A program made the translations under genes and the position numbers. A DNA stretch of 64,000 nt from Rhodococcus opacus (lineage in GTDB: Bacteria; Actinomycetota; Actinomycetes; Mycobacteriales; Mycobacteriaceae): contig NZ_JAAXPA010000010.1 of the NCBI RefSeq assembly GCF_012396235.1, forward strand, positions 186,001 through 250,000. Direction: 5' to 3'. The notes under the pieces are model-generated. The model was not told where the DNA came from. It was given only the letters and a program-made list of their open reading frames with translations, and did not search any database. Shown here piece by piece: positions 44,073 through 45,605 of the stretch. Position 1 is the first letter of the stretch. Each line of letters opens with the position of its first letter.

Positions 44073-44105
44073 TATAACGCACCGGGGGCCTTGCGGCAAG
44101 ACCCC
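44073..44105 (+). promoter_or_regulatory. Rifamycin-associated element (RAE) and -10 of rox
   Basis: TATAAC (44073-44078) is a good -10. About 6 bp later an inverted repeat, GGGGCCTTGCGGCAAGACCCC, spans about 44085-44105, with arms GGGG...CTTGC and GCAAG...CCCC. It closely matches my recollection of the published RAE that marks rifamycin-inactivation genes. A repressor there would cover the transcription start. Confidence 0.75.
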
Positions 44106-44177
44106 GGTCGTGCCGCAGAATCTCCCACCGAAGCCAGAACCTGCGGAAATCAGTTCGCGGCGTATGTGGGGGTCTTC

Positions 44178-45605
44178 GTGATTGACGTGATCGTTGCCGG
44201 CGGCGGACCGACCGGCCTGATGCTGGCCTGCGAGTTGCGGCTGCACGGCGTGCAGGTGCTCGTGCTGGAGAAGGAGGCCGAGCCGACCAGGCATGTCCGG
44301 TCGCTGGGCCTGCACGTGCGCAGCGTCGAGGTGATGGACCAGCGCGGTCTGCTGGTGCGATTCCTCGCGCTCGGCAAGCAGTACCCCGTCGGCGGCTTCT
44401 TCGCCGGTATCAGCAAGCCGCGGCCCGACCGGCTGGACACCGCACATCCGTACATCCTCGGCATCCCGCAGCCCGTCACCGAGCGCCTGCTGATCGAGCA
44501 CGCCACCGAACTCGGCGTCGAGATCCGGCGTGGCTGCGAACTGGTCGGGCTGAGCCAGAACGAGGACGGGGTTACCGCCCTGCCGACCGACGGCACACAG
44601 CTGCGCGCGCGCTACCTCGTCGGTTGCGACGGCGGCCGCAGCACGGTGCGCAAGCTGCTGGGCGTCGGCTTCCCCGGCGAGCCGACCCGGGTCGAGTCGC
44701 TCCTGGGCGAGATGGAGGTGGCCGCGCCACCGGAGACGCTGGCCGCCGTGGTGGCCGAGGTCCGCAAAACCCACAAGGGGTTCGGCGCCGGGCCCTCCGG
44801 GGACGGGGTGTACCGCGTCGTCGTGCCCGCCGAGGGGGTGGCCGAGGACCGGTCGGTCCCGCCGACCCTCGAGGAGTTCAAGCAACAGCTGCGGGTGTTC
44901 GCCGGCACTGACTTCGGCGTGCACTCACCGCGGTGGCTGTCCCGCTTCGGCGACGCCACCCGGCTGGCCGAGCGCTACCGGGTCGGCCGGGTGTTGCTGG
45001 CCGGCGACGCGGCGCACGTCCACCCACCGCTGGGCGGGCAGGGCCTCAACCTCGGCGTCCAGGACGCGTTCAATCTGGGCTGGAAACTGGCCGCCGAGAT
45101 CAACGGCTGGGCACCGGAGGGGCTGCTGGACAGCTACCACACCGAACGGCACCCGATAGCCGCCGACGTGCTGAACAACACCCGCGTGCAGTCCGAGCTG
45201 CTGTCCACCGAGCCGGGTCCCCAGGCGGTGCGCCGGCTGCTGTCGGAACTGATGGACGTCGAGGAGGTGAACCGGTACCTGACCGAGAAAGTCACCGCGA
45301 TCGGTGTCCGCTACGACTTCGGTGAGGGGCACGAACTGCTCGGCCGACGGCTGCGCGACATCGGGCTGAAGCGGGGACGCCTCTACGAGCTGATGCATGG
45401 TGGCCGCGGATTGCTGCTCGACCAGACCGGCCGGCTTTCGGTGGCGGGCTGGGCAGACCGGGTCGACCACGTCGTCGACGTCAGCGAGGAACTGGACGTG
45501 CCCGCGGTGCTGCTGCGGCCGGACGGCTACGTGGCATGGGTCGGGGGAGACCAGCAGGATCTGGTCGGCCAACTGCCCAGGTGGTTCGGAGCGGCCGCCG
45601 GCTGA
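44178..45605 (+). CDS. rox: Rifampicin monooxygenase (Rox/Iri-type flavoprotein)
   Basis: The 475-residue class A flavin monooxygenase has the FAD Rossmann motif [18 protein letters not shown], the DG motif [17 protein letters not shown] and the second FAD motif [22 protein letters not shown]. Segments [13 protein letters not shown] and [21 protein letters not shown] match the rifampicin monooxygenases Rox (Streptomyces) and Iri (Rhodococcus) as I recall them. They oxidise and linearise rifamycins. GTG 44178 gives the usual length; an extension to 44091 would run through the RAE and is rejected. It sits alone after priA behind its own RAE promoter. Confidence 0.88.

Follow-up and report, generated by a model that had tools for sequence, protein, structure and literature searches.

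The rifamycin-associated element before a Rhodococcus opacus rox gene lies midway between two opposite-facing predicted -10 elements

Rifamycin-associated elements (RAEs) are already known DNA elements with the core consensus letters CTTGCGGCAAG. In the literature, represented here and below by excerpts of the cited papers, the RAE of actinobacteria is described as a 19-bp palindrome, and deletion of half of it abolishes the induction of mycobacterial helD (PMC10719064). Two sense promoters have been mapped for Mycobacterium smegmatis helD; the -35 of the downstream one overlaps the RAE, and the other starts about 20 bp ahead of the element (PMC10719064). The palindrome, the gene families and the place ahead of the gene are the same at the locus described here. 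However, the excerpted RAE accounts present a pair of sense promoters plus a palindrome to which an unnamed factor would bind, whereas we propose a mirrored antisense promoter, together with a T/C contrast at position -12 and a terminated antisense RNA that these excerpts do not contain. In the part of PMC11077062 that was searched for antisense RNA, the HelD protein alone is named.

The closest likeness outside actinobacteria is the helD/pps alarm of Bacillus subtilis, in which an antisense promoter restrains the sense promoter before rifampicin-resistance genes and rifampicin lifts this restraint at helD (PMC12802891). The antisense promoters of that system have 19-bp spacers, as does the one proposed here, but its promoters converge, with starts 39 bp apart, while those proposed at the RAE diverge back to back with overlapping -35s. 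The search in that work covered 45–100 bp between promoters; the RAE pair, divergent and overlapping, is not a convergent alarm of this kind. The excerpts of the same paper (2026) set the actinobacterial RAE apart from the B. subtilis alarm, call its sensing mechanism unsolved and suspect a factor. In the mycobacterial rpoB-rpoC operon, promoter I restrains promoter II and low rifampicin relieves the restraint (PMC6181997), although these are the first (5') and second (3') promoters of one operon, the restraint requires the transcribed inter-promoter sequence, and the authors argue against plain transcriptional interference as its explanation. In Escherichia coli, pseudo-symmetric DNA forms bidirectional promoters at which polymerase sits in either of two exclusive orientations (PMC12825309). 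The RAE has such pseudo-symmetry too, but it is centred on the -35 region and kept in a single rigid geometry before resistance genes. Polymerase competition was reported at activated E. coli bidirectional promoters, in contrast to basal activity, where it was seen at none of five (PMC12825309).

The arrangement at the R. opacus locus suggests that bacteria could hold such genes off until the drug arrives by means of a two-way promoter. An antisense promoter at the RAE was not found in searches of the open-licence PMC literature; the primary RAE (2014) and HelR (2022) papers lie outside that scope and may already show parts of the arrangement.

The rox gene and the recurrence of its palindrome

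The window, i.e., the whole stretch of 64,000 nucleotides that was analysed, corresponds to C2:186001-250000 of an 8.1-Mb genome in 109 contigs, and all positions refer to it unless another contig or locus is named. The rox gene lies between priA, which ends at 44006, and a PadR-like regulator gene (Table 1). Its product scored 927.7 bits against the NCBIfam Rox model NF033145 (cutoff 800) over the whole profile (1-472 of 472), and its closest solved structure is the rifampin monooxygenase 5vqb (E 5.1e-242). The initial annotation had called this 475-codon ORF Rox/Iri-like; the Rox half of the name holds, whereas the stricter Iri model NF000343 gave 754.5 bits, below its cutoff of 950. The PadR-like gene (45736-46392), downstream of rox, scores under the PadR cutoffs, and a link between the two is at most hypothetical. 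Rfam at curated thresholds and a tRNA search returned no match in the whole window. By analogy, rox is likely to be rifamycin-inducible; the Rox homologue of M. smegmatis, MSMEG_2252, appears in a list of the most strongly induced genes at 20 min of rifampicin exposure, as do the helicase MSMEG_2174 and the Arr protein MSMEG_1221 (PMC6529629, excerpts).

Table 1. Features of the rox upstream region, in window positions
Feature	Position	Strand	Basis
Intrinsic-terminator-like hairpin of the antisense RNA, followed by CCTTTTGTGT	44034-44065	-	terminator scan and folding
Short antisense RNA, predicted; 5' end near 44062 inferred from spacing	44028-44062	-	spacing from TATGGT
Antisense-promoter -10, TATGGT (ACCATA on the plus strand), 19-bp spacer	44069-44074	-	A-26 in 213/215 sites, T-22 in 214/215
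RAE, 21-bp palindrome GGGGCCTTGCGGCAAGACCCC, with both overlapping -35-like hexamers inside	44085-44105	.	centre G44095
Gene-promoter -35, TTGCGG, inferred	44091-44096	+	TTG in 215/215 sites, most of them selected by the core pattern
Antisense-promoter -35, TTGCCG (minus-strand reading), inferred	44094-44099	-	same palindrome
Gene-promoter -10, CAGAAT, 19-bp spacer	44116-44121	+	A+22 in 214/215 sites, T+26 in 213/215
rox mRNA leader, predicted; start near 44128	44128-44177	+	spacing from CAGAAT
rox, rifampicin monooxygenase	44178-45605	+	475 aa, GTG start; NF033145 and 5vqb match

The 21-bp inverted repeat that the initial annotation had taken for an RAE is indeed a dyad about G44095 with a single mismatched pair and, judged by its letters, is a genuine RAE. 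It contains the 19-bp palindrome with the consensus core and lies upstream of a rifamycin-resistance gene, with 83 bp between the palindrome centre and the rox start. The identification is borne out by recurrence across genomes, by the genes behind the sites and by a control that started from the gene. The pattern GGGNNCTTGCSGCAAGNNCC occurs without mismatch at two places in the same genome (reversed control pattern, none), in 29 of 61 relatives, and in 158 of 394 genomes of a class-wide draw versus 7 genomes with a match to the reversed control, counted from rows. By itself, the 11-bp core is not significant in the window: three matches with up to one mismatch, two of them one place read on both strands, were found versus 0.92 expected, and 8 of 100 shuffles reach three.

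The genes behind the sites were assigned by tblastn with five reference proteins, within 1.4 kb downstream; HelR (from L122), Rph (L058), Arr (L054) and Rox (the window) were above their model cutoffs, and the Rgt reference (L002) was below its own. Clustering of downstream ORFs mixed reading frames, and tblastn was used instead. One of the five genes lies downstream of 117 of the 120 discovery sites (among the matches listed) and of 55 of the 57 usable distinct sites from 59 fresh, held-out loci, 172 of 177 together. In the gene-first control, Rox was found at E 1e-100 or better in 19 of 28 genomes of the genus, in 21 copies including the one studied here, and 18 of them have an RAE (up to four mismatches to the composite) in the 300 bp before the gene. 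The remaining copies, L289, L299 and L300, have no RAE within 300 bp upstream (best match, 10–11 mismatches). These three Rox copies (77–78% identity) have another leader in common, around ggatgaacgggg.

For column statistics we pooled 220 sites with up to five mismatches from the composite, 215 of which have a gene: HelR 105, Rox 62, Rgt 22, Arr 14 and Rph 12. This set overlaps the earlier ones and is partly pattern-selected, and its counts for the core and arms, as well as some -10 counts from later searches, are not independent evidence; 214 of the 215 53-mers differ. In gene orientation, 169 sites have G and 46 have C as the asymmetric centre base, thus the palindrome can sit either way round. 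Variant cores, found in two of the 215 sites and before rox in L290 (TTGTGG), retain TTG and CAA, and further variant hexamers, TTGTGG and TTGCGT, are present among the rows of wider pattern searches. A free-core pattern with GGG/CCC arms, matched in 120 of 298 genomes, served solely to view such variants; as a site finder it was rejected, as it also caught sites resembling tRNA and coding repeats.

Two probable mirrored promoters around the palindrome

The four columns best conserved beyond the searched core (122 matches, among the matches listed) are A-26, T-22, A+22 and T+26. They correspond to the near-invariant A and T of two -10 elements, one per strand and each 19 bp from a TTG, and the palindrome lies exactly midway between these opposite-facing predicted elements. 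Both -10s are present at 114 of 120 discovery sites (among the matches listed) and 55 of 57 held-out sites, when flank composition gives a chance of 0.00075 for the pair; no other spacing between 11 and 59 placed both sides in more than 10% of sites. The held-out exceptions are L161, in which the antisense hexamer is TACGTA, and L137, a site with no gene of the five families beside it. In the gene-first control, both -10 pairs are kept in all 18 RAE-bearing Rox rows of the genus, as judged by eye.

A strict sigma-70 scan (spacers of 16–18 bp, 9 of 12 matches) found no promoter of any kind in 43900-44300. The spacers of both proposed promoters measure 19 bp, and their -35s share no more than the TTG with TTGACA; therefore conservation, not consensus, carries them, and on this ground we regard both as very probably real. 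The A...T spacing of a -10 is self-complementary, therefore these two bases alone cannot set a direction. The direction is fixed because only the inward TTG hexamers keep the fixed spacing, and because of the bases at -12 and the outward hairpin with its T-tract. At -12, the gene side has C in 195 and T in 3 of 215 sites, while the antisense side has the consensus T in 211 of 215. Calls of direction made from the -10 types matched the direction of the resistance gene in all 165 callable sites (53 of 53 held-out); among the 177 sites, the discovery part of which comes from the matches listed, 7 with a gene were undecided in direction and 5 lay before none of the five genes. In this GC-rich DNA the longest downstream ORF proved an unreliable guide to orientation: compared with the -10 types it agreed in 131 of 169 sites and disagreed in 38, with 8 undecided.

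The same columns bear on the earlier reading of this region, in which TATAAC was the rox -10 and the RAE lay over the start site. The hexamer is present at 44073-44078, and TATA stands at its place in 163 of the 215 sites. Its role as the rox -10 was rejected: TATAAC is unsupported because the needed sixth-position T is absent from the equivalent hexamer in 215 of 215 related sites (present in 0/215), and no -35 was seen for it. The TATAAC box overlaps the antisense -10 region, and the antisense TANNNT is retained in 48 of the 52 sites without the sense TATA. Conservation places the RAE over the gene-promoter -35, in agreement with the overlap at M. smegmatis helD, rather than over the start, which is predicted about 23 bp beyond the element. 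A further sense promoter upstream is possible because M. smegmatis helD has a sense start about 20 bp upstream of its RAE (PMC10719064, excerpts), but a promoter with TATAAC as its -10 and the RAE over its start seems very improbable. A CACTCT-like NANNNT is found on the sense strand, at -33 to -28 from the palindrome centre (window 44062-44067), in 119 of 215 sites; it may belong to an upstream sense promoter or form part of the antisense start region.

The outward hairpin

A terminator scan of 43900-44300 found a single candidate, on the minus strand at 44065-44034, versus 0.2 expected, in which a GC-rich hairpin is followed by a T-tract as in intrinsic terminators. The minus-strand segment 44063-44025 folds with -17.8 kcal/mol (z -3.61), and a cut without the 3' arm gave no fold, as expected. 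By these features the antisense RNA is expected to be only about 35 nt long, with this terminator-like hairpin at its end, and antisense transcription would stop just before priA.

The arrangement recurs at other RAEs. In a search limited to hairpins 3–9 bases after the antisense -10, 100 of 215 sites have one, versus 14 of 215 on the sense side, 11 of 215 further upstream and 11.7 in shuffles; a hairpin with a T-tract is found at 56 of 215 sites on the antisense side versus 0 and 0 in the controls. The pooled sites contain 91 distinct pairs of hairpin arms. Among 105 sites selected for a 9-bp stem that is largely paired, stem position 3 is C-G in 45, G-C in 36 and A-T in 12; these stems were picked for pairing, and the counts take the sites as they come, relatedness included. 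Several pair types per stem position are what compensating changes in a maintained structure would produce. The hairpin signal was weaker in the held-out set. A low-energy fold alone was found in 19 of 54 held-out sites on the antisense side versus 11 of 54 on the sense side, and a fold with T-tract in 11 of 54 (controls 0 and 1; sense side 0) and in 48 of 115 discovery sites among the matches listed (controls 0 and 4). A first terminator screen, which the test of energy with T-tract and the anchored hairpin test replaced, was too lax: it accepted 52 of 115 discovery sites among the matches listed, when shuffles gave 26 and the sense side 9, and 12 of 54 held-out sites, when these controls gave 6 and 5.

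It could be argued that the upstream hairpin is a mere priA terminator and the outward -10 a neutral by-product of symmetry. The hairpin lies directly behind priA and might end the RNAs of both strands, bidirectional promoters are widespread (PMC12825309, excerpts), and over half of the 215 sites have no hairpin by the anchored test. However, the hairpin stands 3–9 bases from the antisense -10 before all five gene families, before arr at 1 of 14 sites, the T-tract accompanies it on the antisense side, and conservation of the outward -10 equals that of the gene-side one. We consider this explanation highly improbable.

A further possibility is that the palindrome acts as an RNA hairpin, an attenuator or riboswitch within a longer transcript. 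Its strand can fold (-9.1 kcal/mol), a sense start precedes it in M. smegmatis helD (PMC10719064, excerpts), and positions -11/+11, just outside the 21 bp, pair in 101 of 215 sites versus 85.2 expected. Against this, the fold is barely above shuffles (z -1.10), there is little covariation at -6/+6 (63 of 215 paired, 53.6 expected) and -10/+10 (127 of 215, 129.8 expected), the Rfam search of the window at curated thresholds found no such RNA, and the conserved gene promoter would begin the RNA downstream of the palindrome. An RNA element thus seems most unlikely.

The sensor of the drug and further RAE loci

We propose that two promoters of the sigma-A type, which face opposite ways and cannot be occupied together, share the RAE as their -35 region, a reading that could equally well prove right or wrong. 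Without the drug, polymerase would be captured mostly in the antisense direction, where it would make a dead-end RNA of about 35 nt and occlude the rox promoter; sub-inhibitory rifamycin would preferentially disable the antisense promoter, and the gene promoter would gain. The palindrome midway between mirrored -10s, the C/T contrast at -12 and the outward hairpin support the notion of competing promoters, for which mycobacterial rpoB, B. subtilis helD and the activated E. coli promoters are precedents. Points against it are the empty strict promoter scan, the terminator that over half of the sites lack, and the absence of competition at basal activity in E. coli. The weak point of such competition is the sign of the drug effect: a rifampicin-stalled antisense polymerase should block the shared site, hence an extra step is needed, such as quick loss or ejection of the stalled enzyme. 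Both the polymerase itself and a putative palindrome-binding protein are plausible as the sensor, each with somewhat less than an even chance. It is only tentatively, then, that we put forward the full version, in which the RAE has no dedicated regulator, polymerase does the sensing, a stronger and often immediately terminated antisense promoter silences the gene, and drug-bound polymerase fails at that promoter first.

The bases flanking the two -35 hexamers speak for a bound protein. A pattern without the arms matched in 74 of 348 genomes, and 30 sites in the returned loci were examined, of which 26 precede one of the five resistance genes. In these 26, GGG at -9 to -7 and the C-5/G+5 pair are kept without exception, and C at +7, +8 and +9 is found in 23, 25 and 21, respectively; in the 4 sites without a gene the GC arms are absent. 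The arms being kept in 26 of 26, selection must act on more than the two -35 hexamers. Of all the evidence, this conservation argues most strongly for a palindrome-binding protein, and it counts against a model with polymerase alone. A putative rifamycin-responsive factor could bind the palindrome as a dimer and cover both -35s, to be released by the drug or turned into an activator; the antisense promoter would then be a by-product or a minor part. The dyad reaching beyond the hexamers fits with this, and a factor is suspected in the excerpts of both PMC10719064 and PMC12802891. However, a dimeric factor leaves the one exact antisense -10 spacing (213 of 215 sites) and the terminator without explanation. 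As enzyme and helicase families stand behind 172 of 177 sites, at most five sites could regulate the regulator itself, and the factor would also be needed in the two metagenome bins labelled Chloroflexi (L075, L091). We regard it as possible, if rather doubtful. The RAE sites in these bins may reflect either transfer between phyla or misbinning.

If polymerase is the sensor, five unrelated resistance gene families would share one portable module of about 53 bp, and the divergent promoter pair would be a second design, beside that of B. subtilis, whereby the target of an antibiotic reports the antibiotic. The rigid divergent promoter pair and the terminated antisense RNA offer a concrete and cheap test of the need for a protein factor. 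The promoter pattern may also sharpen searches for inducible rifamycin-resistance genes, one of the five resistance genes being present at 26 of the 30 sites examined with the pattern that leaves the arms free.

The genome of the window has a second RAE, at C17:55014 (G000:C17:55014-58461), before a gene for an Rgt-like glycosyltransferase that scored 498.9 bits, under the model cutoff of 800. Behind this gene follows a HelR-like gene (C17:56338-58461), which matched the HelR reference in two pieces of 69% and 63% identity in one frame; the two genes probably form one operon with two kinds of rifamycin resistance. The Arr reference had no match in this genome, in a search without a positive control that carries little weight. 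A more distant HelD-like protein, with 37% identity to the HelR reference, is encoded at G000:C30:31252-33336 (L303), on a contig in which the RAE pattern searches found no RAE. In Rhodococcus oryzae (L036) there are two RAE sites, near 2191 and 5965, one of which precedes a flavin monooxygenase-like ORF (4356-5897, minus strand). The leaders of rox (44128-44150) and of rgt (L002, 1544-1566) have the block CCGAAGCCAGAACCTGCGGAAAT at the predicted start, and this block is partly conserved in other RAE loci.
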